The notes under the pieces: model-generated
Database searches by the model: none
The model's input: only the letters and a program-made list of their open reading frames with translations
Told to the model about the DNA's origin: nothing
NCBI RefSeq assembly: GCF_900109955.1
Contig: NZ_FOJB01000001.1
Location: 124,001-188,000, forward strand
DNA length: 64,000 nt
Reading direction: 5' to 3'
DNA from: Aliiroseovarius sediminilitoris
Lineage (GTDB): Bacteria > Pseudomonadota > Alphaproteobacteria > Rhodobacterales > Rhodobacteraceae
Translations under genes and position numbers: made by a program
Shown: positions 26,182 through 49,645 of the stretch, piece by piece
How positions within the stretch are numbered: position 1 is the first letter of the stretch
Layout: each line of letters begins with the position of its first letter

Positions 26182-26199
26182 GGTGCGGGCTACCGCACC
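26182..26199. terminator. Hairpin between convergent genes
   Basis: A perfect 7-base stem GGTGCGG / CCGCACC with loop GCTA lies across the end of the 2-hydroxyacid dehydrogenase and the eamA stop. There is no T run on either side, so termination is uncertain. Confidence 0.4.
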
Positions 26200-27029
26200 A
26201 AACCGATGAAGATGATCCCGGCCCCGACAGCCGCTGCCGACATAAGACGCCGTGCCCGCGGCCCTTCGCCAAACCAAAGAACGCCGATCAGGGCGGCGAA
26301 GATCACCGAAGTTTCGCGCAGCGCGGACACGATGCCCAGCGGCGCGATTGTCTTGGCATAGAGCACCAGCGCATAGGCGGTGCCAGACACCACACCCCCC
26401 ATGAACCCGATCAAAAGCATTCTGGGCGGTTGCGCGCGCAACCGGTCCAAGCGGGAGGGAAACAGAAACAGAACGATCAGGATTTTCGACAGGAACAGCC
26501 AGCCAATATAGCCAAGCGCGCTGCCGGAAGTTCGCACGCCGAACCCATCGACCAACGTATAGGCTACCACGGTGCCTCCAACCGCCAAGGCCGCGAAAAG
26601 TGCGTTTCTGGAAATCGTCGCGCTGAATGCGCCTTGGGCAAGAAACATGATCCCTGCCGAGACGCTGAAAATGCCGATCCACGCCTGCAAAGGCAGCGTT
26701 TCGCCCACCCAAAACTGCGCGCCTAACGCGACAAGAACCGGGGCGAAGCCGCGCGCCACGGGATAAATGAAGCTCAGATCACCCAGACGATAGGCGACGC
26801 TCAGGAAATAGAAATAAAGCCAGTGAATCGCGACGGACGCGATCATAAAGGGCCATGCTGACGGATCCGGGATGGGCACGAACCCGATGAAGGTCAGGGC
26901 AAAGGCCACATGCCCCAAGGCCATCATGCCCAGCATGATCACCCTGTCCCCTGCCCCTTTTACCAGGGCATTCCACAGCGCGTGCAGGAAAGCAGCCGAC
27001 AAAACAATCAAGGCGACTTGAGCAGTCAT
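26190..27029 (-). CDS. EamA/DMT-family transporter of the phosphonate operon
   Basis: 279 residues with ten hydrophobic helices in two EamA repeats (FLHALWNALVKGAGD at the start; FIYPVARGFAPVLVALGAQF closing the first, APLGIVSALRETSVIFAALIG in the second). DMT-family carriers move small metabolites such as amino acids or amines, often outward. The start ATG at 27029 overlaps the pbfA stop by four bases (ATGA), so it is translationally coupled and the last gene of phnW-phnA-phnY-pbfA-eamA. This placement suggests a link to aminophosphonates or to a product such as acetate or an amine. The substrate is unknown. Confidence 0.85.
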   Translation of the reverse strand: MTAQVALIVLSAAFLHALWNALVKGAGDRVIMLGMMALGHVAFALTFIGFVPIPDPSAWPFMIASVAIHWLYFYFLSVAYRLGDLSFIYPVARGFAPVLVALGAQFWVGETLPLQAWIGIFSVSAGIMFLAQGAFSATISRNALFAALAVGGTVVAYTLVDGFGVRTSGSALGYIGWLFLSKILIVLFLFPSRLDRLRAQPPRMLLIGFMGGVVSGTAYALVLYAKTIAPLGIVSALRETSVIFAALIGVLWFGEGPRARRLMSAAAVGAGIIFIGLVR

Positions 27030-28381
27030 GCCGCGTCTTTGATCGCCGTCACCACAATCTCAAGCGCGCGGTCCAGATCATCGCGCGCGATGGTCAGCGG
27101 GGGCGACAGGGTCAACACACAGCCCTGGCTGATCTTGAAGCTCAGACCCGCTTCGAGACAGGCGTAATAAATCCGCTCTGCCTTCGCATTGCCAGGGGTT
27201 TTCAGGGCGCGGTCTTCGACGATTTCGACACCGAACATCAGACCGCGACCACGAATGTCGCCGACAATCGGGACATCTTGAAGACGATCCTGAAGCACAT
27301 GCATCGCGTAGGTGCCAAGATCGGCGGACCGGGCGACCAGTCCTTCTTCCTCGATGATCTCGATCGTGGTCAGGGCGGCGCGGGATGTGACCGGGTTTTT
27401 TTCGTGCGTGTAATGCCCGATGGCGAAGTCACCGCAGACATCCAGTTCCTGTCGCGCCACGCAGGCCGCGATCGGAAGGATGCCGCCGCCCAGCGCTTTG
27501 CCCATGGTGACGATGTCGGGGATAATCTCGTCATGTTCGAACGCGAACATCTTGCCGGTCTTGCCCAGTCCGGTCGGAATTTCGTCCATGATCAAAAGTG
27601 CGCCGTGTCGGCTGCACGCCTCTCGCACGGTCTTCCAGAAACCGGGGGGCGGAACATACGGCACCGCACGCATGGGTTCCGCGATCACCGCGGCCACGTC
27701 GCCTTCGCGCTCCAGCACATATTCGACCATCCTGGCACAGGCCAATCCGCAGGCGTCGGGGCTTTCGTGATTATACGGGCAGCGATAGCAGGCAAACGGC
27801 GCGACATGTTCGGTGCCCGACAGAAGCGGCCCGGCGATGTGGCTGCGGAACGTCGCCTCGCCCCCCACGCTGGCCGCGCCCATCCCCGCGCCGTGAAACG
27901 CATCCCAGAACGAGATTGTCTTGAACCGCCCCGTCGCGGCACGCGCGATCTTCAACGCCACCTCATTGGCGTCCGACCCGCCAGTGGTGAACAGCACCTT
28001 GCCAAGATCGCCGGGCGCAATCGCGGCCAGTTTCTCGGCCAGTTGAACTGCCGGGTCATTGGTGAACCGCCGTGGTGCGAACGGCAGATCGTCCAACTGC
28101 GCCTTGATCGCGGCAATCAGTTTGGGGTGGCCATAACCGATATGGTGCACGGAATTTCCATGAAAATCCATGAAGCGGCGCCCGTCCATATCCTCGATCC
28201 AGATTCCGTCGGCCTTCGCAATGGTGCTGACACAGGGGCTGGACAGGCTTTGGTGCATGAACGCATCGGCGTCGCGTTTCAACAACGGACCGGATTTGGG
28301 CCCGATGGATTTCTTCAACCAAACCCGCCGTGCGTCCGACGTGTTGGATTCGCCTTCGGTGTGAACGATCTTGGTTGTCAT
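27026..28381 (-). CDS. pbfA: PbfA-like (R)-1-hydroxy-2-aminoethylphosphonate ammonia-lyase (class III aminotransferase fold)
   Basis: A 451-residue PLP enzyme of the class III aminotransferase fold. Motifs: DGRRFMDFHGNSVHHIGYGH, TTGGSDANEVALKIAR, FWDAFHGAGMGA, CYRCPYNHESPDAC, LIMDEIPTGLGKTGKMFAFE and the PLP lysine in TMGKALGGGILPI. Enzymes of this type inside phnW/phnY/phnA operons have been shown to be PbfA, an elimination enzyme that turns (R)-1-hydroxy-2-aminoethylphosphonate into phosphonoacetaldehyde and ammonia. Older annotation would be aminotransferase. The ribosome site GAGG lies upstream, and a hairpin separates it from phnY. The assignment rests on fold plus context; direct homology search is needed to exclude a different transaminase. 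Confidence 0.8.
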   Translation of the reverse strand: MTTKIVHTEGESNTSDARRVWLKKSIGPKSGPLLKRDADAFMHQSLSSPCVSTIAKADGIWIEDMDGRRFMDFHGNSVHHIGYGHPKLIAAIKAQLDDLPFAPRRFTNDPAVQLAEKLAAIAPGDLGKVLFTTGGSDANEVALKIARAATGRFKTISFWDAFHGAGMGAASVGGEATFRSHIAGPLLSGTEHVAPFACYRCPYNHESPDACGLACARMVEYVLEREGDVAAVIAEPMRAVPYVPPPGFWKTVREACSRHGALLIMDEIPTGLGKTGKMFAFEHDEIIPDIVTMGKALGGGILPIAACVARQELDVCGDFAIGHYTHEKNPVTSRAALTTIEIIEEEGLVARSADLGTYAMHVLQDRLQDVPIVGDIRGRGLMFGVEIVEDRALKTPGNAKAERIYYACLEAGLSFKISQGCVLTLSPPLTIARDDLDRALEIVVTAIKDAA

Positions 28382-28456: not shown

Positions 28457-29905
28457 CTAGTTCGGCCAGGGCAGCGAATAGGTTTTGACGTTGGTAAAGA
28501 ACTTCATCGCTTCGGTGACGCCTTCCTTGACGGCATTGCCTGAATCCTTGATGCCGCCAAACGGCGATGTTTCGATCCGGTAGCCGGGCTGTTCCCAGAT
28601 GTTGCAGGTCCCCACATCCAGACCGTTGATAAAGGCGATCGCGCGGTTCAGATCATTTGTGCAGACCCCCGAAGACAGGCCGAACTGGGTCGAGTTCGAG
28701 ATCCGCATAACCTCGTCATCATCATCGGGCACACGGACGATTGGTATGATTGGGCCGAAAGTTTCCTCCATCACCAATTCACTGTCATGGGGCACGTGGT
28801 CGACCACAATGGGCGGCAGAAGCGCGCCGTCGCGACCGGGGTGATACAGGATTTCGGCACCATCCTTTTCGGCCATGAAGACGCGTTTTTCGAACAGTTC
28901 TGCCGCCTGCGCATGGATCACGCAACCCAGTTCCGTGTCGGGGTCTTGCGGATCGCCAAACTTGATCTTCTTGGCCTTCTCAAGCACCAGCGGCACGAAC
29001 TTGTCAGCCACGCTTTCCTGCACCAGAATACGTTTGATCGCGGTGCAGCGCTGGCCGGAATTGCCCGTGGCCCCCGCCACCGCAATGGTCGCGGCCTTGT
29101 CCAGATCGACATCGCGCAGATCGTTGCAAACGATCAGAGGATCGTTGCCGCCAAGCTCGAGCGCCTGCCGCTTATAGGACGCCTTTTCAGCGATCATCTT
29201 GCCCACGGGCACGCCGCCGGTGAAGGTGATGATGTCGATGTTTTCGTTGACGATCATCTCCTCTCCGATATCCTGCGGCCAGCCGGTGACAACCTGGAAC
29301 ATCTCGGGCGGCAGGCCCGCTTCGTAAAGGATATCTGCCAGCGCAATCGCGGTCAGCGGCGTCAGCTCGGTTGGCTTGCAAACCATACAATTGTTGGTCG
29401 CAATCGACGGCGCAATCTTGTGGCTGACCATGTTCAGCGGATGGTTGAACGGCGTGATCGCGCTGATCGCCCGCACCGGTTCGCGCTTGGTGAAAATCTT
29501 GCGCTCTTTCCCGTTGTGGGTCAGGTCACACGAGAAAATCTCGCCATCGTCATTCAATGCCTGCGCGGCAGCGAACTGATAGACATCCTGCGCGCGCTTG
29601 GTCTCGTAAATGGCGTGCTGGTGACAAATGCCCAACTCCAGCACCAGCCACTTGGCCAGAAACTCGCGCCGCTCACCGATCAGTTCACCCGCACGTTGCA
29701 GGATTTGCGACCGTTCATAACGCGATAGCTTCGACTTGTAGTTCGCCGCAATGTCAAATGCGCGACGGGCGTGTTCAGCCTGACCGGCGGGCACTGTGCC
29801 GATGACCTCATCAGTATAGGGATACTTCACCGGAACGACATCGTCAGTGAACACGATCTCGCCGCCGATGCGCATACCTTCGTGGCGGATGTGGTCTTTG
29901 CTCAT
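28457..29905 (-). CDS. phnY: Phosphonoacetaldehyde dehydrogenase
   Basis: A 482-residue NAD(P)-dependent aldehyde dehydrogenase that oxidises phosphonoacetaldehyde to phosphonoacetate. The start is the ATG at 29905 ([15 protein letters not shown]) with AAGGATAA eight bases upstream; the ATGs at 29920 and 29947 overlap the end of phnA. Motifs: [35 protein letters not shown], catalytic Glu in [12 protein letters not shown], catalytic Cys in [25 protein letters not shown] and FGGIKDSGN. The specific name rests on sitting between phnA and pbfA/phnW. Regulated with phnW and phnA as one operon. Confidence 0.9.
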
Positions 29906-29921
29906 CACGTTATCCTTCATA

Positions 29922-31166
29922 TCAAAGCGCCGCTGCCTGAGTGGCATAGAAGAACGCGTCGAAGTTCCGCAGCACCGGGCGCTCCGGCAGGGGCAGAACG
30001 CGGTTGCAGATGAACGGCACCTCTTGTTCGGTCAGTCCACCGTGGCTGCGCAAAGGTTCGTTCAGCGCGGCCAGATCGTGACGATGTTCTGATGTTCCGA
30101 TGCAGATGTTTTCGCCCGACACCAGAACGATGTCACCAATCCGATCCGCAGGCAATTCAAAGCGGGCAACCGCCTCGGTGTTGGTCAGCACATCCGTAAT
30201 CCCATCCGTGGCGCGCAGCTTGGCCATGATGTCATCCTGATCGGCACTGTCGGGCAGATAGGCCGTCGCAAACGAACCAAGCGCGCCATGGTGCACAACA
30301 TAAGGGTCGGTGATCGGCAGGATCAGGCGCGCAGCAGCTTCGCCCAGCCATTGGTCAAGCAAGTCTTGCACATAAACGACCGAGGGCGAGCCATCAGCGT
30401 GATGCTTGGGCTTCATACCGTGGTCGGCGGTCACGACAATGGCGGCACCCATCGCATCCAGCTCGGTCAGATACTTGTCGAACATCTCGTAAAACGCTTT
30501 CGCCTGGGCCTGATCGGGGGCGTATTTGTGCTGCACGTAATCGGTGGTGGTCAGATACATCACGTCCGGTTTCCATTCGCGCAGCAGCTTGACGCCGGCG
30601 GCAAAGACAAACTCGGAAAGTTCAGCGGAGTATACCTCGGGTTGGGCCATGCCCAGCCATTTGCTGGCCGCATCCTGACCGTGCTCTGCTTGGGTCGACG
30701 TGTCGGATTTCTCGGCCGAGAAGCACTTGGCGCGGTCCTCATCAAACTTCAACCCCGCCCCCAGAAGGGCACGCAACTTGTCTTTGGCCGTTACCACTGC
30801 GACACGCGCTCCCGCCTCGTAAAACTGTGAAAAGATCGTCGGCGCGCGCAGAAAACGCACGTCGTTCATCATCACCTCTTCTCCGGTCTCCGGTTCATAC
30901 AGGTAATTGCCGCAAATCCCGTGCACGACCGGCGGGCGGCCCGTGGCAATAGACAGGTTGTTAGGGTTGGTAAACGACGGGACCACCGAATGCGCCAGCC
31001 GGTCGGTGCCGGTTTCCCGCATCCGCTTCAAGGTCGGCATCAACCCGTCGGCAATCGCCTTGTCCAGATACTCCGGCTCGCACCCATCAAGGCAGATCGC
31101 AATCGCACAGGTTTTCGGAGCAGGGTAAGCGCGCCCGTTCACGACGACGGGGGATTGAATGGTCAT
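29922..31166 (-). CDS. phnA: Phosphonoacetate hydrolase
   Basis: A 414-residue alkaline-phosphatase-superfamily enzyme that splits the C-P bond of phosphonoacetate to acetate and phosphate. The two-zinc site is visible: Asp in [14 protein letters not shown], the catalytic Thr in [17 protein letters not shown], Asp and His in [13 protein letters not shown], Asp-His in [12 protein letters not shown] and the late His in [13 protein letters not shown]. The [17 protein letters not shown] segment is typical of PhnA. The ribosome site AAGGA precedes the ATG. It lies between phnW and phnY with short gaps. No phnX (phosphonatase) is present, so the PhnW-PhnY-PhnA route is the one encoded. Confidence 0.95.
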
Positions 31167-31186: not shown

Positions 31187-32374
31187 TCAGGCAGCCAGTT
31201 TGGCGCGTTCTTCAAGTGCGATGGCAGGTGGGGCGGCGCTTTCGACGCCCATCTCGTTCAGTGTTTCCTTGGCGGCGGTCACAACCTGCCGCATGACATT
31301 CTCATCCATCTGACCAATGCAGCCGATGCGGAAACTGTCCACGACGGTCAATTTGCCCGGGTAGATGATGAACCCTTTGCCTTTCATAAGCTCATAGAAG
31401 CGGTCAAAGACGAAGTTTTCATCCGCCGGACAGAAGAATGTCACGATGATCGGCGACAACCAGCGATCTTTCAGTAGGGTTTCAAACCCAAGCGCGCGCA
31501 TCCCATCGACCAAAACATCGCGATTGCGCGTATAGCGCCCGCCACGACCGGCAACACCGCCTTCGGCTTCGTGCCCGCGCAACGCCTCAAGGAAGGCGGC
31601 GACCACATGGGTGGGCGGAGTGAACCGCCATTGTCCGGTCTTGTTCATATGCGCCCACTGCGCGTGGACATCCAGGCTCAGCGAATGACTGTTGCCCTTG
31701 GCGGTTTCCAGTTCTGACTTACGCGCGATGATGAAGCCGAAACCCGGCACACCTTCGATGCACTTGTTTGCCGAAGATACCATCGCTTCGTAGCGAATGT
31801 CTGCGACCCTCAACTCGATCGCGCCAAAGGCTGACATCGAGTCGATCAGGAGCTTCCGTCCGGCAGCATATGTTGCTTCCGAGATTTCCTCGACCGGGTT
31901 CAAAATGCCAGAGCTTGTTTCGCAATGGATCGCGACGACATGGGTGATCGCCGGGTCGTCGGCCAATATCTGCGCGACCTCGTCGCCACGCGGCGGCAGG
32001 TAATCGCCCTTATTCAGCACAACATGTTCGCGGCCAAGATACTCCAGCGTCTGCGCCGAGCGCATCCCATAGGCGCCGTTGGCCAACACCAACGCTTTGC
32101 CATCACGCGGAATGAAGGACGCCAGCATCGCTTCGACCGAGAACGAGCCGCTGCCCTGCATGGGCACACAATCGAAGTCATCGGACCCGTCGCCAAGCAA
32201 TGCCAAAAGGCGCGCGCGCATGTCCCGCGTCATGGCGCGGAAGTCATCATCCCAGCTGCCCCAGTCGCGCAGCATCGCTTCTTTCACTGCGTAAGACGTG
32301 GTCAAGGGACCGGGGGTCAGAAGATACGGCTCGCCCAAACGCGGCGGTTCGATTTTGAGGTCTGCGGCGGTCAT
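31187..32374 (-). CDS. phnW: 2-aminoethylphosphonate:pyruvate aminotransferase
   Basis: A 395-residue PLP enzyme of fold type I that moves the amino group of AEP to pyruvate, giving phosphonoacetaldehyde and alanine. The start is the ATG at 32374 with GGAGA upstream; the open frame to 32443 lies in the promoter region. Motifs: PYLLTPGPLTTSYAVKEAML, DWGSWDDDFR, PMQGSGSFSVEAML, VAIHCETSSGILNP, LLIDSMSAFGAIEL and the PLP lysine in SSANKCIEGVPGFGF. A C-terminal extension (VESAAPPAIALEERAKLAA) is mildly unusual. It is the first gene of the operon and divergent from the LysR gene. Confidence 0.95.
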   Translation of the reverse strand: MTAADLKIEPPRLGEPYLLTPGPLTTSYAVKEAMLRDWGSWDDDFRAMTRDMRARLLALLGDGSDDFDCVPMQGSGSFSVEAMLASFIPRDGKALVLANGAYGMRSAQTLEYLGREHVVLNKGDYLPPRGDEVAQILADDPAITHVVAIHCETSSGILNPVEEISEATYAAGRKLLIDSMSAFGAIELRVADIRYEAMVSSANKCIEGVPGFGFIIARKSELETAKGNSHSLSLDVHAQWAHMNKTGQWRFTPPTHVVAAFLEALRGHEAEGGVAGRGGRYTRNRDVLVDGMRALGFETLLKDRWLSPIIVTFFCPADENFVFDRFYELMKGKGFIIYPGKLTVVDSFRIGCIGQMDENVMRQVVTAAKETLNEMGVESAAPPAIALEERAKLAA

Positions 32375-32491
32375 GATCTGTCTCCGAAAGGGGGGAACGC
32401 AAGAACAGCATTGCAGCAGTTTCATCCATATGTGAAATTGCAATTAACGATCAAAGCATAAGTTGTGCCTATACCAGAAATAAGCGGAAAG
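32375..32491. promoter_or_regulatory. Divergent promoter region of phnW and the LysR regulator
   Basis: 117 AT-richer bases between the two start codons. The palindrome ATTGCAAT (in GAAATTGCAATTAAC, about 32436-32443) and the stretch ATAAGTTGTGCCTATACC near 32458-32475 are candidate LysR contact sites, but neither is a confident T-N11-A operator. Confidence 0.45.
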
Positions 32492-33379
32492 ATGATGCGC
32501 CACAGCCAGTTGAAAGCCTTTCACCACGTCGCCCTGTTGGGTGGATTCTCGCGCGCCGCCGAGGCGCTTTTCCTGACCCAGCCCGCAATCTCGGAGCAGG
32601 TAAAAAAACTGGAGCAGGAACACGACACCCTGTTGTTTCACCGCGAACGCAAACGCGTTCGGTTGACCGAAGAAGGTGCACAGCTTTTCCTGTTCACCAA
32701 GCAATATTTCGAGATCGAGCAGAAGATCGAGGATTACATGTCCTCGACCAGTGCCGCGATTGACGGAGAGTTGCGCATCATCGCCGACAGCGCCCACCAT
32801 ATCACCCACTTCCTGGGTGATTTCCGCACCCGCTATCCCAATATCTCGGTCACATTGCGCACCGGGAACACCGAGGAAATTCTGGAAGACCTGCGCGCCT
32901 ACAACGCCGAAATCGGCATCGTCGGAAGCCTGACTCCCGGTGCCGACATGACGGCGCTGAACCTTGGAACAACCAAGATCACAGCCTTTGCTGCGTGCGG
33001 ATCGTTGTTGGCTGCGCGCCCAGCGCTCAGCCTGCAAGACCTGGCGGATCTTCCGCTGATTTTTCGCGAACAGGGGTCCAAGACACGACAGAAGCTGGAG
33101 GAGCGGGCGAAGCAGAAAGGCGTGACCCTGACCCCTGCCATCGTTGCCGAAGGGCGCGAGGCTGTGCGCGAGGTTGTCGCTTCGGGCGCGGGAATCGGGT
33201 TTGTGTCGCAAGCCGAGTACGGGCACGATGACCGGCTGACCCAGATCACGCTTGTCGATGCCGATATCGAGATGAGCGAGACATTGGTGCATTTGGCACA
33301 ACGGAGCGATGTCAAAGTGATCCGCGCCTTCATGGAGTTTGCACGCAAGGCTCAGGACGAAAAAAGCGCCGGCGATTAG
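32492..33379 (+). CDS. LysR-family regulator of the phosphonate operon
   Basis: A 295-residue LysR-type regulator. The start is the ATG at 32492 or 32495 (MMRHSQLKAFHHVALLGGFS), preceded by GGAAAG; the GTG at 32465 is less likely. The N-terminal helix-turn-helix is FSRAAEALFLTQPAISEQVK, followed by the linker helix and a two-lobed effector domain (DGELRIIADSAHHITHFLGD, IVGSLTPGADM, REAVREVVASGAGIGFVS). It is divergent from phnW, the classical arrangement for an activator whose ligand is a pathway compound such as AEP. Homologous LysR genes next to phnW operons have been called AepR-type regulators; the effector here is inferred. Confidence 0.88.
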   Translation: MMRHSQLKAFHHVALLGGFSRAAEALFLTQPAISEQVKKLEQEHDTLLFHRERKRVRLTEEGAQLFLFTKQYFEIEQKIEDYMSSTSAAIDGELRIIADSAHHITHFLGDFRTRYPNISVTLRTGNTEEILEDLRAYNAEIGIVGSLTPGADMTALNLGTTKITAFAACGSLLAARPALSLQDLADLPLIFREQGSKTRQKLEERAKQKGVTLTPAIVAEGREAVREVVASGAGIGFVSQAEYGHDDRLTQITLVDADIEMSETLVHLAQRSDVKVIRAFMEFARKAQDEKSAGD

Positions 33380-33411: not shown

Positions 33412-35433
33412 TCAACGTGTCCGCCATGCCTGCGTGCGCGTCAGGACACCCTTGGATACAATCAGGTGAATGATCCGTGCCAGTGCGTTGGTGTAGAAGA
33501 TCATCATCCCCATCGCCGCCGCCGGGGCAATGTCACCCGCATCGTCCATGTTCAACACTGCAATCGACGCCAGCGATGTCTTGGGCGAATACAGGAACAC
33601 CACCGCCGACACCGTCGTCATCGCATTGACGAACAGATAGATCGAGATATCCAGGATCGACGGCAGGCACACCGGCACCGTGACCCGGCTGAACAGTTTC
33701 ATGGTCGGTTGCTTCAGAGATGCCGACACGGACTCAAACTCGCGATCCATCTGTTTCAATGCGGTGACGGCCGTCAGGTGTGAAACGGTGTAGAAATGCG
33801 TCACCGAGCAGATCACCAGAATCGCCATAGTGCCATAGATCGCATTCAGCGGGTTGGACGGGTTGTTGAAAAAGAAGATATACGCCAGGCCCAGCACCAT
33901 GCCCGGAATGGCCATGGGCAACATGGCGAACATCTGAAAGAGTGCGCGACCGGTTCTGAAGCCATTGGTCTTCTCGACCAGATATGCGCCGAAGAACACG
34001 ATGGCCGTTCCGAACACTGCCGTCAGCAGGCCCAGCTTGATCGAGTTGTAATAAGACCCCCAACCGCCGCCATCCATCCGGTCGAATTGATAATTGTTCA
34101 GGCTCAAGCTCAGGTCATAGGGCCAGAACTTGATCAGGGCCGCGAATTGACAGACCGCCAGAATGCCGATGATGAACAGGCCGACAATGGCGCAATAGAT
34201 GAACGAGATCGTGTCAGTACGCTTGTCGGGCTGCGGCTGATAGGGAACCGAGCGCGCCGACAAAAGCGCCACCTGCTTTGACTGCACCAACCGGTCGATG
34301 GCAAAGGCGAAGATCGCGGGGATGACCAACACGACCGACACCACCGCGCCCATTTCAAAGTTCTGCTGGCCGATAACCTGTTTGTAGATATCCACCGCCA
34401 ACACGTTGAACTGACCACCGATCACCTTTGGCAGGCCGAAATCGGTGATCACGAGGTTGAACACCACGAACGCCGCCGAGATCAGGCCATAGCGTGCACC
34501 GGGAATGGTGACAGTCCAGAAGGTGCGCCAACGGGTTGCCCGCAAACTGGCCGCCGCTTCGTAAAGACGCGCATCCGAGATCGCCAACGCGGTCGAGATA
34601 ATCATGAAGGCGTGTGGGAACGTAAAGAATATCGACCCGATGACGATCCCGATCGGGCCATAGATGCTGGCCCCGAACAACAGCTCTTTCATCATGCCCT
34701 GATTGCCGAACAGATAGACCAGCGCGATCCCCGGCAACAGCGATGGCACGAGGATTGGTGCCATGGCGATCAAGCGGAACACGCCTTTGTAACGCATGCA
34801 GCTGCGGTTGAGCGCATAGGCAAACCAGAAGGCCAGCATCACGGTCACAATTGTGCTGACCACTGCGATCCAAAGCGAGTTTTTGATCGAGTTGAACAGC
34901 GCAGGCGTCGAGAAATAATTGATGAAGTTGTCAAACCCGGTTGCTTTAACAGGTCGCAACTGCACCCGGCGGAAGGTGTTGCTATCCAGCGTCACCCAAT
35001 CGGTGCCATCCTGAAGCGTCGATCCGACCAGAAACCGACCGGCCTGGCTGGTGTTTCGGATTTGATACATGACCGGACTGCGGAAACTGAAATCCGGAAA
35101 AAAGCCCGTCACACCAATGCGCCCATCCGATCCGGCGCTTAGATCAAACTCATCAATCGCCCCGGTTTGCGCGTTCAACTCCGCGCCGTTCAAGACGGTG
35201 CCATCAAACACGCCATCCTCGTCGCTGACCTGGAATTCATACTGGGACAGCTCAAAACGATAGGTCGAAAACGATTTTGACAGCATGGCATAAAGCGGAA
35301 ACGCCAAGGTAATGACCAGATACAGGGCAATAACCAGCATTCCGCCGCGCATCATGATGTCATCACGGCTCAGCTTGCCTTTGATGGTCGGGCCACCGGG
35401 CAGTTGTGAAAGATCGGTCGCGTCGGCCATCAA
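33412..35433 (-). CDS. aepW: AEP ABC importer, fused double permease (PhnU2/AepW-like)
   Basis: 673 residues with two complete ABC importer permease units in one chain, about twelve helices. Each unit has a coupling-loop motif: EAAASLRATRWRTFWTVTIP in the first and FESVSASLKQPTMKLFSRVT in the second. Between the first helix and the rest of unit one there is a periplasmic insertion of about 100 residues (FELSQYEFQVSDEDG to LRPVKATGFDNF). Fused permeases of this family are annotated as putative 2-aminoethylphosphonate transporters. The start overlaps the stop of the ATPase gene (ATGATGG), and it is the last gene of the aepX-aepV-aepW operon. Confidence 0.88.
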   Translation of the reverse strand: MMADATDLSQLPGGPTIKGKLSRDDIMMRGGMLVIALYLVITLAFPLYAMLSKSFSTYRFELSQYEFQVSDEDGVFDGTVLNGAELNAQTGAIDEFDLSAGSDGRIGVTGFFPDFSFRSPVMYQIRNTSQAGRFLVGSTLQDGTDWVTLDSNTFRRVQLRPVKATGFDNFINYFSTPALFNSIKNSLWIAVVSTIVTVMLAFWFAYALNRSCMRYKGVFRLIAMAPILVPSLLPGIALVYLFGNQGMMKELLFGASIYGPIGIVIGSIFFTFPHAFMIISTALAISDARLYEAAASLRATRWRTFWTVTIPGARYGLISAAFVVFNLVITDFGLPKVIGGQFNVLAVDIYKQVIGQQNFEMGAVVSVVLVIPAIFAFAIDRLVQSKQVALLSARSVPYQPQPDKRTDTISFIYCAIVGLFIIGILAVCQFAALIKFWPYDLSLSLNNYQFDRMDGGGWGSYYNSIKLGLLTAVFGTAIVFFGAYLVEKTNGFRTGRALFQMFAMLPMAIPGMVLGLAYIFFFNNPSNPLNAIYGTMAILVICSVTHFYTVSHLTAVTALKQMDREFESVSASLKQPTMKLFSRVTVPVCLPSILDISIYLFVNAMTTVSAVVFLYSPKTSLASIAVLNMDDAGDIAPAAAMGMMIFYTNALARIIHLIVSKGVLTRTQAWRTR

Positions 35434-36545
35434 CTTGCCTCCGGGCGGTCGAAAGCCATCAAGCGATCGGTGGGCAATTCGATGACCATCTTGCGACCTT
35501 CTCCCAACCCAAGCCGGCGTACCGCATTGATCGAGAAATCAGCGATCAGTTCGGACTGGCCAAAGCGGTCGTTGCGCAAGCGGCAGCGCCAGAACGATCC
35601 CAGAAACTCCATTTCATGCAGCAACACGTCGATGCAGTTGCGGTTCGGATCTTCTGCGCTATAGCCGTCTTCGTGAGGGATGATATCTTCGGGACGAATG
35701 GCCGCCACAACGACGGTGCCATCTTTGAAGCTGTGTTCATGGCAGGCGAAAGTCTTTTCACCCACGCTGAGCCGGCCACCCTTGGCAACCATTGATTCAA
35801 CCTGGTTCATCTCGCCGATGAAATCAGCAACGAACAGGTTTGCAGGTTCGCGATAAATTTCAGTGGGCGAACCGACCTGTTCGATCACACCATGGTTCAT
35901 CACCACGATCCGGTCGGCCATCGCCAAGGCTTCTTCCTGATCATGCGTCACCATCACTGTGGTCACACCCAGCTTGCGCTGAAGCTCTTTGATCTCGTGA
36001 CGCAGGTGAACGCGCACTTTGGCATCCAGCGCGGAAAGCGGTTCATCCAGCAACAGCAGGCCGGGGTTGGTGGCAATCGCACGGGCCAGCGCAATCCGTT
36101 GTTGTTGCCCGCCGGACAGTTGCGCCGGATATTTGGTGCCCTGCTCGGGCAGCCCGACCAGTTCCAGCAACTCGCTGACCCTGACGGCAATCTCGGATTT
36201 GCTGCGGCCGGTGTTTTCCAGCCCAAAGGCGATATTCTTTTTGATCGTCAGGTTGGGAAACAAGGCATAGGATTGGAAGACGATACCAAAATCCCGCTCG
36301 GACGGCGGCAGGTTCGACACATCCTTGCCGTCCTGCATGACGGTTCCCTTGGTTTGCAGATCAAGCCCTGCGATAGCCCGGAGCAAGGTCGTCTTGCCAC
36401 AGCCTGACGGGCCAAGGAAGCACACGAACTCACCCTCTTTAACGTCCAGAGAGACATCTTTCAGCGCGAGAAACGTGCCGAAAGCTTTCCACAGCTTATC
36501 GATGCTGAGATAGGTTTTCTGGCCTATAGCAGTGTCTTGTATCAC
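35430..36545 (-). CDS. aepV: AEP ABC importer ATPase (PhnT/AepV-like)
   Basis: A 371-residue ABC ATPase. Walker A GPSGCGKTTLL, Q-loop FGIVFQSYALFPNLT, signature QLSGGQQQRIALARAI, Walker B LLLLDEPLSALDAKVR and switch His in VMVTHDQEEALAMAD. The C-terminal ~130 residues form a TOBE-like regulatory domain (VAAIRPEDIIPHE, LLHEMEFLGSFWRCRL). This length and tail are typical of the spermidine/putrescine/iron-type importers that include the AEP systems. It overlaps the permease gene by four bases and follows the binding-protein gene after a hairpin. Confidence 0.9.
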   Translation of the reverse strand: MIQDTAIGQKTYLSIDKLWKAFGTFLALKDVSLDVKEGEFVCFLGPSGCGKTTLLRAIAGLDLQTKGTVMQDGKDVSNLPPSERDFGIVFQSYALFPNLTIKKNIAFGLENTGRSKSEIAVRVSELLELVGLPEQGTKYPAQLSGGQQQRIALARAIATNPGLLLLDEPLSALDAKVRVHLRHEIKELQRKLGVTTVMVTHDQEEALAMADRIVVMNHGVIEQVGSPTEIYREPANLFVADFIGEMNQVESMVAKGGRLSVGEKTFACHEHSFKDGTVVVAAIRPEDIIPHEDGYSAEDPNRNCIDVLLHEMEFLGSFWRCRLRNDRFGQSELIADFSINAVRRLGLGEGRKMVIELPTDRLMAFDRPEAS

Positions 36546-36672: not shown

Positions 36673-37695
36673 TTATGACTTGGGTTCGGACTTGCCGTCA
36701 TAGCGGCTCTGCCATTCTTCAAGAATGGCCGCCCGATTGTTGGCTGCAAACTCAAAATCATTGTCGATCATTGCGTCCAGCAGACCCTCGGGGAAGTGCT
36801 CAACCGGCTTGGCGATGCCGGGATAGGCAACAACCGCATAGCCGGTATTGTACATCTCGTTGGCTTCCTTGGTGACGGTGAAATCAACCAGCGCCTGCGC
36901 GGCTTCAAGATTGGCTGTGCCCGCAACGATTGCCGTGGCCTCCATGTCCCAACCGACCCCTTCGGACGGCACGATGATTTCCAGCGGCGCACCGTCGGCT
37001 TTCGACTTGGCACCACGGAAGGCAAACGAGATGCCGATCGGAATTTCACCCGACGCGGCCAGCTTGCAAGGTTTGGAGCCGGAATGGGTATAGCGCGCGA
37101 TGTTTTCATGCAGCGCGTCCATATACTCCCAGCCGCCTTCTTCACCAAACATTTGCAGCCAGCTGGACACGTCCAGGAAACCTGTGCCGGACGAATTTGG
37201 GTTCGGCATGATCACATGACCCGCATACATGGGATCGGTCAGATCCTTCCACGATGTCGGTGGTTTCAGTCCAAGCTTCTCGGCCTCGACGGTGTTATAG
37301 CAGACCGAGGCGACCCAGGCGTCCATGCCAACCCAGGCGGGCGGGTTGTCGCCATCCACGAATTTCGGATCAAGGTTTTCAACACCGGCCGGGGCATAAG
37401 GCTCAAGCATCCCTTCGGATTTCAGCAGCAACAATGACGTGGCTGCCAGACCCCAGATCACGTCTGCTTGCGGGTTGTCACGCTCGGCTAACAGTTTTGC
37501 GGTGATGATCCCGGTGGAATCGCGCACCCAGTTGATCTTGATGTCGGGGTTGCTCTGGTTGAACGTCTCGGCGTAGCGGGCCAGATCTTCGGCTTCTACG
37601 GCAGTATAGACCGTCAGTTCTGTCTCTGCGACCGCAGCGGTAGCAAAGGCGACGCTAGCCAGAAAGGACGTCAGTCTTTTCGCTGTGTGTTTCAT
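36673..37695 (-). CDS. aepX: AEP ABC importer substrate-binding protein (PhnS2/AepX-like)
   Basis: A 340-residue periplasmic protein with a signal peptide (MKHTAKRLTSFLASVAFATAA, cut after VAE-A region near residue 23). The start is the ATG at 37695 with GAGGAG upstream; the open frame to 37764 is not needed. Mature features: ELTVYTAVEAEDLARYAETF, INWVRDSTGIITAKLLAE, ADVIWGLAATSLLLLKSEGM, MPNPNSSGTGFLDVSSWLQM and IGISFAFRGAKSKADGAP. These are typical of the type 2 binding proteins annotated for AEP. It is the first gene of the importer operon; the 303 bases upstream hold its promoter and repeated operator-like motifs. Confidence 0.88.
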   Translation of the reverse strand: MKHTAKRLTSFLASVAFATAAVAETELTVYTAVEAEDLARYAETFNQSNPDIKINWVRDSTGIITAKLLAERDNPQADVIWGLAATSLLLLKSEGMLEPYAPAGVENLDPKFVDGDNPPAWVGMDAWVASVCYNTVEAEKLGLKPPTSWKDLTDPMYAGHVIMPNPNSSGTGFLDVSSWLQMFGEEGGWEYMDALHENIARYTHSGSKPCKLAASGEIPIGISFAFRGAKSKADGAPLEIIVPSEGVGWDMEATAIVAGTANLEAAQALVDFTVTKEANEMYNTGYAVVAYPGIAKPVEHFPEGLLDAMIDNDFEFAANNRAAILEEWQSRYDGKSEPKS

Positions 37696-37876
37696 TATCT
37701 TCTCCTCTGTTGATCTTCTGTTGTCGTGGCGGGAGCGATCAACTTCCACGCCATCCTTTTTCAAGCCAGTTTGGCAGGTTCTGACGACAAGAAAAATCGA
37801 TTATACCTACCATATGATTGGCCTGCCTTATACCATATCCAGCCACTGGGGCTTGGCGCGTGAGCCTCGCTTCGAA

Positions 37877-37939
37877 CCTCGTGACAGCGCAGATCATGCC
37901 CTGCGCCTCGTGACATATGTTTATCAATGTTTTGTGACA
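37877..37939. promoter_or_regulatory. Repeated GTGACA motif upstream of aepX
   Basis: The ten-base CCTCGTGACA occurs at 37877-37886 and again at 37906-37915, 29 bases apart (about three helix turns), and GTGACA recurs at 37934-37939. They lie in the 303-base gap between aepX and the Na/Pi gene, where the aepX promoter must be. Nearer aepX (37801-37848) there are two TATACC...CATAT copies. The binding protein is unknown. Confidence 0.4.
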
Positions 37940-37998
37940 GATCGGGCTGCACCGTCTGGCGCTTGAACTTCCAAGGAGGTCACATTGCTTGTTGCGCA

Positions 37999-39678
37999 TC
38001 AGTCGCTCACCTCCGTGCCATCCAGGTCTTCGATCAAGCGCGTTTCCAAAAGCTGGCCATTCCGATACAGGATCGGATACGCAATCGCGGCGATATGGTT
38101 GTTGATATCACGCAGGGCGCGCAGCGTTTCCAAATGGATATCGCTGGTCTCGAAGCTCTCGACACGACCATTTTGCAGGCGCGCAAGGTGATATTTTCGG
38201 CTTTTGCGCTCGGCCCGTTTGAAATCGGCTTTCTCGACCACAAGCAAACGCGCGCTTTCCAGATCATCCGAGATCAGAACATTGCTGGCCAGATGGAAGT
38301 TCGCGCAGACCGCCTCGTACATCCGCAGAAGTTCGGCCCAGCCTTCCTCTGAAAAACTCAGATGCCCATCCAGTTTTTCTTTCGCAACCGAGGTCAATTT
38401 CATCGCAATCACATCGCCCGCGGCTTCAAGTCGGATGGCATATTCCATCAAACCGCGAACAGATTTGACGTCCGCTTTTGAGTAAGTGTTTTGCGGCATA
38501 GTCGCGACGTAGGATCGGATGCCTGATAGCGTCTCATTCACCTCGTCGTCCTTTGCGCGCGTCGCCCGCAACACCGATGTATCGCTTGCCTCGTAAAGTC
38601 GGGGCACGGTGTGAAACATCCGCTCAACCTGACCGATCATCCGCAGCAACTCCCGTTTCAAACTGGCGATCGCCTGTTGCGGCGTATCGAGCGCGGATGG
38701 GTCCAATGCGCTGACTGGCTGATCTACCCCATTTGCCTGATTGCCCGAATATTTTGGGAACAACCGCACAATCGGGTGTTCAATCAGGCTACAAAATGGC
38801 AGCGCCAGCACCAGAAGCGACAGGTTGAACCCGATATGGGCATAAATCAGCGACTGGCCGGGACCAACAAACAGCAGGTGATCTGGGTCAGCCAACAAAT
38901 TAATGACCAGCAGAACAATCAAGGCCCAACTTCCGCGCAGCATCAGGTTTGCGAACGGAATACGTCGCCCCTCTGACGACATTCCACGGGTCAGCCAGAT
39001 CGGAATGAACGCGCTGCCCATATTTGCCCCCAACAAAAGCGACAGCGCGGCGGCGAAGGGGATTGCGCCGATCTGAACCAGCGTCACACACATCAGGATC
39101 GCGGCAACACTGGAATGCATGATGAATGCCAAGGCGGCACCGACGATGAAAGCTGTCACGAAATCACGCGCCAGATACCCGGACACTGCCGGAAGAAATG
39201 CGCTGTCGCTGATCGGGGCAACGGCATCGCGCAGAAACTGAAGCGAAATCAGGATGAACGCCACACCCATCAGGATACGGCCAAATTGCCGACCTTTCTT
39301 GCTTTCAACCTTCACAAACAACCAGCCGCCAGCGGCCAGCAGCAAGGGCACGAGCCAATCCAGCTTGAACGACAAAATCTGAATGATAAGCGCCGATCCC
39401 AGATCGCCACCCAGCACGATTGCAAGCCCGGTGGGAAAGGCCAGATACCCGCTCGCGGCGAACCCGGTTGCCAACAGCGCCACCGCCGCCGAGCTTTGCA
39501 AGACGATCGCCAGGAAAACGCCGGTCGTGCTGGCGCCGATCAGACTGTGGTTGTCTGTAAGCATCCGCTGGAACGAGGCACCAAAGCTGCGCTCGATCCC
39601 CGTGCGCACCATCCGCACGGCGAACAGCAGCAGCATGGTGGCACCCGCAAGGCTGATCACAAAACTTACGATGGCCAT
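37999..39678 (-). CDS. Na+/phosphate cotransporter family protein with PhoU-like domain
   Basis: A 559-residue protein. The start is the ATG at 39678, one base after the stop of the phosphatase gene. The membrane half (residues 1-~300) has the two inverted Na/Pi repeats with QSS motifs (FLAIVLQSSAAVALLATGFA and FIMHSSVAAILMCVTLVQIG) and LLGANMGSAFIPIWLTRGMS. The rest is a soluble helical PhoU-like domain (REL...GQVERMFHTVPRL, YSKADVKSVRGLMEYAIRLE). Members such as YjbB of Escherichia coli export phosphate. Beside an AEP-degrading pathway that frees phosphate, export of surplus phosphate is a reasonable inference, but uptake cannot be excluded. Confidence 0.85.
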   Translation of the reverse strand: MAIVSFVISLAGATMLLLFAVRMVRTGIERSFGASFQRMLTDNHSLIGASTTGVFLAIVLQSSAAVALLATGFAASGYLAFPTGLAIVLGGDLGSALIIQILSFKLDWLVPLLLAAGGWLFVKVESKKGRQFGRILMGVAFILISLQFLRDAVAPISDSAFLPAVSGYLARDFVTAFIVGAALAFIMHSSVAAILMCVTLVQIGAIPFAAALSLLLGANMGSAFIPIWLTRGMSSEGRRIPFANLMLRGSWALIVLLVINLLADPDHLLFVGPGQSLIYAHIGFNLSLLVLALPFCSLIEHPIVRLFPKYSGNQANGVDQPVSALDPSALDTPQQAIASLKRELLRMIGQVERMFHTVPRLYEASDTSVLRATRAKDDEVNETLSGIRSYVATMPQNTYSKADVKSVRGLMEYAIRLEAAGDVIAMKLTSVAKEKLDGHLSFSEEGWAELLRMYEAVCANFHLASNVLISDDLESARLLVVEKADFKRAERKSRKYHLARLQNGRVESFETSDIHLETLRALRDINNHIAAIAYPILYRNGQLLETRLIEDLDGTEVSD

Positions 39679-39679
39679 G

Positions 39680-40459
39680 CTACGCCCCCACCAGATGCAG
39701 AAGGTCGGCATGAAGTTTGGCAGTTGCGGCTGTCACGACGCCTGACGTGCCAGACGACAGGGACAACGGCTGACCTTCCCAATCCGTGACAATGCCTCCA
39801 GCCGCTTCGATCACTGGAACCAAGGGCAAATAATCATAGGGTTGCAGATCTTCATCCACCACAGCATCGACATGCCCCATGGCAACCAACGCATGAGGAT
39901 AACAATCATAGCCGAACCGACGCGTTTGACCTGCCGACAGAAGACGGTTGAAGGCCTGAGGATGTCTGACAAATATCTTCTCGGCTTCGTTGATATATAA
40001 AATCGCCCGATCCAGCGAAGTCTGTGATGAGACGCGAATCTTGTCGCCGTTCAGCATCGCAGAGCCACCCCGCACACCGATCACCGTTTCGTTCAGCACA
40101 GGCATTCCGATCACGCCAATGGTGGGCACACCCTTGTAAAGTCGCGCCAGAAGAATACCAAAAAGTGGGTGGCCAGACAGGAAAGACCGGGTACCATCGA
40201 TGGGATCTATGCTCCAGACATGGTCACAAGTCAGGTCAGATTGACCGAACTCCTCGCCCAGAATGCCATCTTCGGGAAAGTGCTGATCCAAATAGGCACG
40301 CACGCGCAGTTCGACACTGCGATCTGCCTGGGTGACAGGGCTTTCGTCGTCCTTCAGCTCGATCTCAAGCAGATGGCGAAAATACGCCATCGCAGAACTG
40401 CCTGCCAGATCGGCAATGCGATTGGCATGAACGACGGTTGTTTCAGCCTCCGTCAGCAT
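39680..40459 (-). CDS. Inositol-monophosphatase/HisN-family phosphatase
   Basis: A 259-residue Mg2+-dependent phosphomonoesterase. Metal and catalytic motifs are complete: DESPVTQADRSVE, GILGEEFGQSD, the VWSIDPIDGTRSFLSGHPLF signature and YDYLPLVPVIEAAGGIVTDW. The closest named relatives by motif are histidinol-phosphatase (HisN) and inositol monophosphatase; sequence alone does not decide the substrate. It overlaps the DeoR gene by seven bases and is followed immediately by the Na/Pi transporter, so the three form one operon. A role in releasing phosphate from a phosphorylated intermediate would suit the neighbours but is not shown. Confidence 0.88.
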   Translation of the reverse strand: MLTEAETTVVHANRIADLAGSSAMAYFRHLLEIELKDDESPVTQADRSVELRVRAYLDQHFPEDGILGEEFGQSDLTCDHVWSIDPIDGTRSFLSGHPLFGILLARLYKGVPTIGVIGMPVLNETVIGVRGGSAMLNGDKIRVSSQTSLDRAILYINEAEKIFVRHPQAFNRLLSAGQTRRFGYDCYPHALVAMGHVDAVVDEDLQPYDYLPLVPVIEAAGGIVTDWEGQPLSLSSGTSGVVTAATAKLHADLLHLVGA

Positions 40460-41247
40460 TTCACGACCTCCGGATGTACCGCCTTAACGCTGATGTCCCA
40501 ATTGTCCAACTGCCGCGCCAATTCATGCTCCGGCACCTGATCTACGATCATCCGATCAATGCGTTGCGGCGTGAATCCCTGATGAGGTGCTTTCGATCCG
40601 AATTTATGATGAGTCATTGCCACAACTGCCGCATCCGAGCAGTCGATCACCACGGACGCCAGATCCGCTTCCGCCCTGTTCAAATAAAGAAAGCCGCGCT
40701 TGGTGTGCAACGCATCGGCGCTAAGAACGGACAGATCATAACAGAACTGTCGCGCCTGTTGTTCAGCCACGTGACCGAATGCGCCCAGTTCGTCGACATG
40801 CATTTCCCCGCCCAAAAGGTAGACGTGATTGTCGTTGTGGCCCACCAAGGTTTGCGCGACCTGAACCGAGTTTGTCGTTATTGAAAGGCTGCCACGGGTG
40901 CGCAATTCCTCTGCGACGAATGCGGTGGTGCTACCGACATCCAGAAACAACGTCATGCCGTCTTCAATCTCGCGCACAAGGGTTTTCGCCACAGCGCGCT
41001 TCTCTCGCGCATACTGCTCGATCCGCTGGAAAAAGCTCGGGTCGCTCTGGGTTCCGACAAGATAGGCGCCGCCATGAACGCGCGCGACCGAGCCCGCCTT
41101 TGACAACGCCTTGATTGTGCGGCGTACGGTTTCTTCCGAGACATTCAGCGCAGTGGCAAGGTCCGAATTCTTGGCAAACCCGCCGACCCTGCGAATGGCG
41201 TCGAGCAATTCCAGCTCTCGGTAGGAGTGTTTTGTCTCGCCTGCCAT
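40453..41247 (-). CDS. DeoR-family transcriptional regulator
   Basis: A 264-residue regulator. The start is the ATG at 41247 (MAGETKHSYRELELLDAIRR) with GGGGGC upstream; a TTG at 41259 is less likely. The winged helix-turn-helix is GGFAKNSDLATALNVSEETV followed by RRTIKALSKAGSVARVHGGA, the DeoR signature. The sugar-phosphate-type sensor domain shows FLDVGSTTAFVAEEL, ITTNSVQVAQTLV, VYLLGGEM and CSDAAVVAMTHHKFG. Regulators of this family usually respond to phosphorylated sugars or polyols. It is cotranscribed with the phosphatase and the Na/Pi transporter and probably represses its own operon. Confidence 0.9.
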   Translation of the reverse strand: MAGETKHSYRELELLDAIRRVGGFAKNSDLATALNVSEETVRRTIKALSKAGSVARVHGGAYLVGTQSDPSFFQRIEQYAREKRAVAKTLVREIEDGMTLFLDVGSTTAFVAEELRTRGSLSITTNSVQVAQTLVGHNDNHVYLLGGEMHVDELGAFGHVAEQQARQFCYDLSVLSADALHTKRGFLYLNRAEADLASVVIDCSDAAVVAMTHHKFGSKAPHQGFTPQRIDRMIVDQVPEHELARQLDNWDISVKAVHPEVVKC

Positions 41248-41602
41248 ATCAGCCCCCAAGCATGTGGCTTAACCAAATCCTTTGGTTTTCCACATTTTCA
41301 CACAATTTTGTGGATTTTTGCCCGAATCAAGACAAAATACAAGCCAAAACCAAAATTCTAGCCAACAGCCGTGAACTTGTTGTGCCGAGTGTTGAAAGCG
41401 GATGTGATCTACGCGTCGCGTGCCAACGCAACCTGACTATCTTTGTCGGTCCGCCAACCGGTTCTGAGGACCAGGGACATCGGCGGATAGACTTGGTGCA
41501 CGGTGACGGGCGGTCAAATGTTTGAAGCGCGTGATGAACGGGTTGTAACCGACCTCCACCACGTGTTGTTTCTTGGCGGAGTTTTCATCCCGGAGCGGCG
41601 GG
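41248..41602. other. 355-base intergenic region with the DeoR operon promoter
   Basis: No gene is seen. The half nearest deoR is AT-rich and contains inverted repeats (CCAAATCCTTTGG at about 41273-41285 and TCCACA...TGTGGA) and several AAAACCAAAAT-like stretches, as expected for a regulated promoter. The half nearest flgI has ordinary composition and no clear terminator. Confidence 0.55.
41289..41314. promoter_or_regulatory. Candidate DeoR operator
   Basis: An inverted repeat TCCACA (41289-41294) / TGTGGA (41309-41314) with a 14-base AT-rich spacer, 42 bases upstream of the deoR start. The position fits autoregulation. No protein-DNA evidence can be read from sequence. Confidence 0.4.
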
Positions 41603-47453: not shown

Positions 47454-47558
47454 CTCACCACCTCGTTCTTCACCCGGGATCAGTGATAGCGGGCCGAGGT
47501 TGATACGGGCTTAATCTTTCAAATTGTTGGCAATCTAATACTTCACCTGTGAAATGTC

Positions 47559-47591
47559 GCTTTTCCTTGACTTCATTTCAATCGCAACGAT
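47559..47591 (+). promoter_or_regulatory. Candidate hmgA promoter and operator
   Basis: TTGACT at about 47559-47564 followed after about 16-17 bases by ATACCA-like sequence could be -35/-10. The small palindrome ATCGCAACGAT (47581-47591) overlaps the -10 area and shares the nine bases TCGCAACGA with a palindrome before the FAD monooxygenase gene at 51982-51990. Confidence 0.4.
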
Positions 47592-47647
47592 ACCATTGCG
47601 GGGCAAACAGGATTGACCCTGCGAAGGGTATTGAAACGAGGCTTCAG

Positions 47648-49000
47648 ATGAACCAGCACAGCTCTGGGCGCGACATGACGCGCGCGGTGTCCTCTGTCGG
47701 CACCGAAACACATTACATGCCTGGATGGGCAAATGATTTCGAAACCGAGGCGCTGCCCGGTGCTCTGCCACAAGGCATGAACAGCCCGCAGAAATGCGAA
47801 TACGGCCTGTATGGCGAGCAATTGTCCGGCACAGCTTTCACGGCAAACCCGCCGGAACGAACCTGGACCTATCGCATCCGGCCATCGGTGAAGCACTCGG
47901 CACGCTATACGAAAATTGACGTGGCCTATTGGAAATCCGCGCCCTGTGTTGACCCGGATGTGGTCAGTTTGGGTCAGTATCGCTGGGACCCGGTCCCCAC
48001 CACCCAGGGTCTGAACTGGATCACCGGTATGCGCACGATGACCACGGCGGGGGACGTGAACACTCAGGTGGGTATGGCATCGCATATCTATCTTGTCACA
48101 GAATCCATGGTCGACGACTACTTCTACTCGGCCGACAGCGAACTGCTGGTCGTGCCGCAACAAGGCAAGCTGCGCTTTTATACCGAGCTAGGGATCATCG
48201 ACCTTCAACCTCAAGAAATCGGCATCATCCCACGTGGGCTGGTTTACCGCGTCGAGCTGCTGGACGGCCCGGCGCGCGGTTTCGTCTGCGAAAACTACGG
48301 CCAGAAATTCGAGATGCCGGGCCGTGGTCCCATCGGCGCAAACTGCATGGCCAATCCGCGAGATTTCAAAGCCCCGGTTGCGGCGTTTGAGGATCGCGAA
48401 GTGCCGTCGACCATCACCGTCAAATGGTGCGGCCAGTTCCACAAGACCGAGATCGGGCAGTCGCCGCTGGACGTGGTCGCGTGGCACGGCAACTACACGC
48501 CCTACAAATACGACCTGACCACCTATTGCCCGGTTGGCGCGATCCTGTTTGATCATCCGGACCCTTCGATCTTCACCGTCCTCACCGCACCTTCGGGTCA
48601 GCCGGGCACCGCGAATATCGACTTTGTCTTGTTTCGCGACCGCTGGATGGTGGCGGAAAATACCTTCCGCCCACCGTGGTATCACAAGAACATCATGTCC
48701 GAGCTGATGGGCAACATCTATGGCCAGTATGATGCCAAGCCGCAGGGCTTTGTCCCCGGCGGGGTCAGCCTTCACAACATGATGCTGCCGCACGGGCCGG
48801 ACCGGGATGCGTTTGAGGGCGCGTCGAACTCAAACCTCGGCCCCGAGAAGCTGGAAAACACCATGTCCTTCATGTTCGAAACCCGCTTCCCACAGCACCT
48901 GACCGCCTTCGCCGCGAACGAAGCGCCCTTGCAGGACGATTACATCGACTGCTGGGACAGCCTTGAGAAGAAATTCGACGGGACGGCGGGCAAAAAATGA
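47648..49000 (+). CDS. hmgA: Homogentisate 1,2-dioxygenase
   Basis: A 450-residue Fe(II) ring-cleaving enzyme turning homogentisate into 4-maleylacetoacetate. The start is the ATG at 47648 with GAGG seven bases upstream; an ATG at 47675 is the alternative. Motifs: [58 protein letters not shown]-like [12 protein letters not shown], and the iron-site region [20 protein letters not shown] with [10 protein letters not shown]. Length and order match the family fully. It is the first gene of hmgA-maiA-fahA, overlapping maiA by four bases. Confidence 0.97.
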
Positions 49001-49638: not shown

Positions 49639-49645
49639 GGATCAC

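Follow-up and report, generated by a model that had tools for sequence, protein, structure and literature searches.

In marine Alphaproteobacteria, 2-aminoethylphosphonate (AEP) is broken down through AepXVW-phnWAY-pbfA clusters, described in the main text of two studies that used Aliiroseovarius strains as combining an importer, a LysR gene, PhnW, PhnA, an aldehyde dehydrogenase, and PbfA (PMC8316502, PMC8154272). The first of these studies, whose strains include Aliiroseovarius, describes AepXVW clusters for Aliiroseovarius crassostreae and A. sediminilitoris together with growth on AEP, and finds that marine bacteria using AEP as a nitrogen source export inorganic phosphate (Pi), which accumulates in the medium (PMC8316502). 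Here we describe a 64,000-nucleotide stretch of A. sediminilitoris (contig NZ_FOJB01000001.1, positions 124,001 to 188,000; hereafter the window), in which a cluster of this composition lies directly downstream of a tight minus-strand operon encoding a DeoR-family regulator, a phosphatase of the inositol monophosphatase (IMPase) family, and an Na/Pi transporter.

The closest characterised relative with which the transporter was compared, YjbB of E. coli and Salmonella, is reported to export Pi (PMC11389368) and likewise joins an Na_Pi_cotrans region to a PhoU-like C-terminus, however yjbB of strain K-12 lies outside organophosphorus operons, with metH and pepE as neighbours, whereas the window transporter adjoins AEP genes. 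A term search of the main text of PMC8316502, PMC8154272, and related papers (terms varied by paper; supplements and figures lay outside it) turned up no mention of a DeoR regulator, an IMPase, or an Na/Pi symporter, and a literature search on Pi exporters in phosphonate clusters returned nothing relevant. The parts are known singly, and their combination is not mentioned in the main text of the literature searched.

The operon and the distribution of its transporter

The three genes overlap or abut, as the initial annotation had recognised, with the IMPase ATG overlapping the DeoR stop (ATGCTGA, 7 nt in common) and the transporter ATG at 39678 lying 1 nt past the IMPase stop, its open frame reaching upstream to 39711. 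An alternative TTG start at 41259 is possible for the DeoR gene, whose stop ends at 40453. The proposed union of a regulator, a phosphatase, and a phosphate carrier with a PhoU tail is borne out by Pfam, the DeoR-family protein carrying HTH_DeoR (PF08220) and DeoRC (PF00455) domains, the IMPase an Inositol_P domain (PF00459; 172 bits, cut-off 27), and the transporter two stretches of Na_Pi_cotrans (119 bits, cut-off 29) and a PhoU domain (40.7 bits, cut-off 23.5). The annotated AEP importer next to the operon also stands, with PhnS2, PhnT2, and PhnU2, together with PhnW and PhnA, all above curated NCBIfam cut-offs for an AEP mineralisation cluster (AepXVW-PhnWAY). The order deoR-IMPase-transporter and the adjacent phn order are kept in other Aliiroseovarius genomes (L005, L007, L008/L031; L numbers denote surveyed loci, G numbers genomes), and from the IMPase onward on a contig of a metagenome-assembled genome (L006), so the arrangement is more than a set of chance open reading frames (ORFs). 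A promoter and terminator scan gave a result at chance level.

The transporter is 32% identical to E. coli YjbB over 536 alignment positions, nearly the whole length and including the PhoU half, and scores 109.1 bits against the Na/Pi symporter subfamily NF037997 (cut-off 50). In a fold search its C-terminal part aligned with a solved PhoU structure (TM-score 0.86 by target); PhoU alone was matched, with no clear solved relative for the membrane part, and phmmer likewise returned none. The second Na/Pi protein of the host is ~23% identical to it, and is encoded after a PHO4-type transporter gene and before a ugp cluster (L110, C1:1544000-1563500 of the same genome).

Across 246 Rhodobacterales genomes, of which 98 hold a transporter homologue and 28 hold PhnA, the transporter is present in 27 of the 28 PhnA genomes and in 71 of the 218 without PhnA (Fisher p=2.6e-11, two genome lists combined). 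It lies within 10 kb of PhnA, in several arrangements, in 14 of the 28 (G000, G050, G110, G210, G102, G072, G229, G107, G081, G061, G197, G036, G234, and G132), and at 11 kb in G073. At seven loci it directly follows phnY, pbfA, or eamA in the same orientation, after a gap of 22-125 nt (L032, L061, L062, L064, L066, L067, L070), and on the transporter tree the AEP-neighbour label changes at least 7 times, by gain or loss. Outside Rhodobacterales, with distances taken from coordinates alone, 13 of 41 PhnA genomes carry it no more than 20 kb from PhnA, and 7 no more than 6 kb away. Core organophosphorus markers occur near 33 of 79 transporter loci, compared with 1 of 40 arbitrary loci of the same genomes. 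Elsewhere, transporter relatives adjoin UgpB, UgpB-like systems with a metallophosphoesterase, PehA-like esterases, and PhnD/PhnE-like systems with a HAD hydrolase. The last of these and the UgpB clusters, found in many Rhodobacterales, resemble the Gpx and Ugp glycerol-phosphate importers (PMC12718374), the label Gpx-like being given by family and gene make-up rather than by comparison with the GpxB sequence. From the PhnA linkage and these flanking systems, the transporter is a recurrent partner of organophosphorus-uptake clusters, which suggests that it is the leading candidate for the exporter behind the published Pi release by AEP-grown marine bacteria.

Two further settings of the transporter were seen. 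PehA-like sulfatase-family esterases occur with an Na/Pi transporter and a polyamine-type ATP-binding cassette (ABC) importer, in most cases with DeoR and EamA (L036, L040-L044, L047, L049), probably forming an uncharacterised organophosphate-ester module, and at L070 an AEP cluster, an Na/Pi transporter, and an ethanolamine cluster stand together in a single stretch.

Direction of transport and the tie to phosphonates

Export is probably the main role of the transporter at this locus, judged by family and gene context. The initial annotation had put forward Pi export as a companion of AEP breakdown, and the YjbB likeness, the association with PhnA genomes, and the published Pi release all agree with this, however the tie is not specific to phosphonates, as set out below. 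Several observations weigh against export. The direction of transport is not readable from sequence, and YjbB itself passes TIGR00704 (455.9) and TIGR01013 (569), whilst the window protein stays below both cut-offs (144.8 against 210.1, and 125 against 306.15) and is therefore termed YjbB-like rather than assigned to YjbB as an orthologue. In S. aureus, NptA likewise carries a PhoU domain but works as a Pi importer (PMC13170248). Within an ethanolamine tripartite ATP-independent periplasmic (TRAP) transporter and gamma-glutamylation operon located around 5-15 kb of its locus (L053, L054, L055: RpiR-like, GGAH, EtoVWX-like, transporter, ETAGA, aldehyde dehydrogenase, and Fe-dependent alcohol dehydrogenase), no cytoplasmic Pi surplus is obvious, and export does not readily account for the transporter there. 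The markers were chosen partly after the neighbourhoods had been viewed, and the loci share ancestry, so the p-values overstate independence and serve as guides only; 26 of the 79 transporter loci are without any chosen marker. A DeoR-IMPase-transporter triplet without adjacent phn genes also exists (L035).

The NptA precedent, the match to the general symporter model NF037997, and the ethanolamine TRAP operon, where uptake of externally freed Pi would fit, lend themselves to a Na+-driven importer that recovers Pi from, for example, the periplasm or medium as part of general phosphorus scavenging. We consider this unlikely, with YjbB an exporter, with neighbours that often deliver organophosphorus compounds uncleaved to the cytoplasm (AEP, Ugp, and Gpx-like systems), and with PstB and two PHO4-type genes already present in the host for uptake.

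Besides the triplet at L035, IMPase-transporter pairs occur without adjacent phn genes at L037, L046, and L048, and because similar operons exist without these genes the operon is not phosphonate-specific. Taken with the transporters flanking Ugp, Gpx-like, and PehA-like clusters, these cases place it in organophosphorus catabolism generally. The idea that operon and phosphonate genes belong together thus holds in part, since the triplet-phn order is kept in Aliiroseovarius, the linkage of transporter and PhnA is wider still, and nearly all PhnA genomes hold the transporter, yet the triplet and pairs also occur away from phn genes. The same cases, along with a private putative operator and the 300 nt that separate the operon from aepX and hold a conserved promoter-like block of their own, would also suit an independent phosphate-homeostasis or phosphatase unit that came to lie beside the AEP genes of Aliiroseovarius by chance, without a functional tie. 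This appears quite improbable, as the transporter by itself is tied to PhnA far above chance inside and outside the order, often stands right behind phnWAY-type genes on the same strand, and in G110 recurs with a DeoR and an IMPase within an AEP cluster of another layout (L010/L066).

The phosphatase and its possible substrates

The IMPase retains the metal-binding motifs GEE, DPIDGT, and a late D, with E69, E70, D85, I87, D88, G89, T90, and D209 invariant in the alignment. HisN is its top family, and its model and sequence are nearest to the histidinol-phosphate phosphatase MtHPP (5EQ9), the closest solved structure, yet it scores 246.9 against the TIGR02067 cut-off of 275.15. A better HisN candidate lies at C1:692943 of the host (274.8 bits, also just under the cut-off; homologues at ~37-42% identity are present in most genomes of the order), from which the window IMPase is set apart on the tree with 100/99 support, and in which 11 residues conserved in the window IMPase family differ. 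With this candidate in the genome, a housekeeping HisN role was set aside as improbable for the window IMPase, which is a HisN-like paralogue.

The phosphatase had been taken by the initial annotation as a sign of an unrecognised organophosphate intermediate or substrate, and it is the second of these that gains ground. The established PhnW-PhnY-PhnA pathway frees one Pi per nitrogen from AEP, and we know of no phosphomonoester intermediate in it, so an intermediate of AEP breakdown was rejected as the substrate and a second, phosphoethanolamine-like substrate is likelier. At nine loci (L011, L015, L016, L019, L024, L025, L026, L158, L161) IMPase relatives adjoin gamma-glutamyl-ethanolamine genes, of the GGAH, ETAGA, GAADDH, and GETADH types known from the ethanolamine gamma-glutamyl pathway of Phaeobacter sp. 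MED193 (PMC10132767), and the host itself carries an Eto-type cluster (L177) with an ETAGA orthologue (71%). The published route uses extracellular PhoX, whereas a cytoplasmic IMPase is proposed here. Importers beside the IMPase relatives at L016, L019, L020, and L024 resemble PhnS2T2U2, the L016 proteins falling below the AEP cut-offs, and other relatives stand with a choline/ethanolamine-kinase-like gene, a DAO-GCV_T flavoprotein, and a ChoXWV-like importer. Besides Aliiroseovarius, IMPase relatives lie beside AEP genes at L010/L066. On the IMPase tree, the label of gamma-glutamyl-ethanolamine neighbours changes at least 4 times. The IMPase copies beside AEP importers at L175/L176 were not counted as a further independent association, because the L175 sequence has neither the YINE nor the YDCYPH signature and the two copies fall on a long branch of the tree.

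These neighbourhoods, from which alone a phosphoethanolamine-type role is drawn, give something close to an even chance that the IMPase acts on phosphoethanolamine or a close analogue; no assay of this IMPase family was found in the literature. That the enzyme instead acts on glycerol, inositol, histidinol, or a sugar phosphate, its ethanolamine- and choline-type neighbourhood being indirect, is a tentative but serious possibility, given the proximity of fold and sequence to MtHPP, the HisN model score of 247 bits, and the often broad substrate ranges of IMPase-family enzymes. The better HisN candidate, the 11 differing residues, and the recurrent linkage to ethanolamine gamma-glutamylation, choline/ethanolamine-kinase-like, and AEP genes speak against such a substrate.

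In L009, L014, L017, L018, L160, L162-L165, and others, a conserved cluster comprises DeoR, an OpuAC-type binding protein, an ATPase, a fused ChoW-like permease, a choline/ethanolamine-kinase-like protein, a DAO-GCV_T flavoprotein, and an IMPase, possibly serving catabolism of N-methylated ethanolamine via phospho-forms. A DAO-GCV_T type flavoprotein of ~820 aa also adjoins the importer inside AEP clusters (L010 6312-8765, L064, L066), where it may demethylate N-methylated AEP.

Regulation, surrounding features, and proposed role

In other genomes, relatives 50-59% identical to the window DeoR protein are encoded immediately ahead of the transporter. The region around the putative operator before deoR has otherwise diverged among the four Aliiroseovarius loci that conserve it, and it is the single match in the 3.41 Mb genome with up to 2 mismatches allowed; upstream of several other deoR-nptA operons, TGTGG-type repeats occur without a strict common operator. 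With this single genomic site ahead of deoR, DeoR probably regulates no operon but its own. On the same ground, a role of DeoR in controlling the AEP genes was set aside, sites of unlike sequence being conceivable; the AEP genes have a LysR gene of their own, and the importer operon its own conserved promoter-like block. The features are collected in Table 1. Further along the window (47549-50902), homogentisate genes resembling HmgA, maleylacetoacetate isomerase, and FAH, named from sequence, adjoin flagellar genes.

Table 1. Features of the operon and the neighbouring AEP cluster (window coordinates)
Feature	Position	Strand	Basis
Putative DeoR operator CCACA-N14-TGTGG, upstream of deoR	41290..41313	(-)	conserved in 4 Aliiroseovarius loci
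DeoR-family regulator gene	40453..41247	(-)	PF08220 + PF00455; start ATG 41247
IMPase-family phosphatase gene, HisN-like paralogue, proposed phosphoethanolamine-type phosphatase	39680..40459	(-)	PF00459
YjbB/NptA-type Na/Pi transporter with PhoU domain, proposed Pi exporter	37999..39678	(-)	PF02690 (two stretches) + PF01895
Intergenic region before AEP importer operon	37696..37998	(-)	promoter-like block TAGGTATAATCGATTTTTCTTGTCGT, near-invariant in 5 loci
AEP-binding protein PhnS2/AepX	36673..37695	(-)	TIGR03261, 514 bits > 392.75
AEP importer ATPase PhnT2/AepV	35430..36545	(-)	TIGR03265, 529 bits > 457.7
AEP importer permease PhnU2/AepW	33412..35433	(-)	TIGR03262, 784.5 bits > 593.25
AEP-associated LysR regulator (AepR-like)	32465..33379	(+)	top family TIGR03339, 287.8 bits, below cut-off 341
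AEP transaminase PhnW	31187..32380	(-)	NF010006, TIGR02326, TIGR03301 above cut-off
Phosphonoacetate hydrolase PhnA, Pi-releasing	29922..31166	(-)	TIGR02335, 503.7 bits > 407.55
Aldehyde dehydrogenase, PhnY by position	28457..29947	(-)	ORF + conserved synteny
PbfA, (R)-1-hydroxy-2-AEP ammonia-lyase	27026..28381	(-)	NF049939, 679.6 bits > 525
EamA-like transporter (named from sequence)	26190..27029	(-)	homologue near Na/Pi transporter in 18/79 loci vs 0/40 control loci

On balance we favour the operon as an accessory module that deals with phosphorus left over when organophosphorus compounds are broken down, coupling Pi release from AEP to Pi export, with some phosphomonoesterase role for the IMPase. 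AEP enters by AepXVW and yields its Pi through PhnW, PhnY, and PhnA, an established pathway whose genes are present here, and the YjbB/NptA-type transporter, by homology and context, would export cytoplasmic Pi above demand. The IMPase may hydrolyse an amino-alcohol phosphomonoester, likeliest phosphoethanolamine or an N-methylated form; phosphoethanolamine, nearly isosteric with AEP, is possibly admitted by the AEP importer. Ethanolamine so formed would pass to the gamma-glutamyl pathway, whose genes lie in another part of the genome, and the Pi to the exporter, with DeoR controlling its own operon through the putative operator. A combined head-group scavenging unit, with a single AepX-type importer for both AEP (C-P) and phosphoethanolamine (C-O-P), PhnWYA to cleave AEP, the IMPase to cleave phosphoethanolamine, and the transporter to expel surplus Pi, is more doubtful, and phosphoethanolamine import by AepX is a guess. 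Were it true, this IMPase family, with the PhnS2-like importers and ETAGA genes found beside it in other bacteria, would make up the Pho-independent phosphoethanolamine route of marine bacteria.

A Pho-independent route for phosphorylethanolamine was left open in published work (PMC10132767), and the IMPase described here is a candidate for a route in which this compound is taken up whole and hydrolysed in the cytoplasm. Use of AEP as a nitrogen source by marine bacteria returns phosphate to seawater, a step of the ocean phosphorus cycle for which the literature searched names no exporter, and a transporter gene consistently linked to PhnA provides a single candidate for it.

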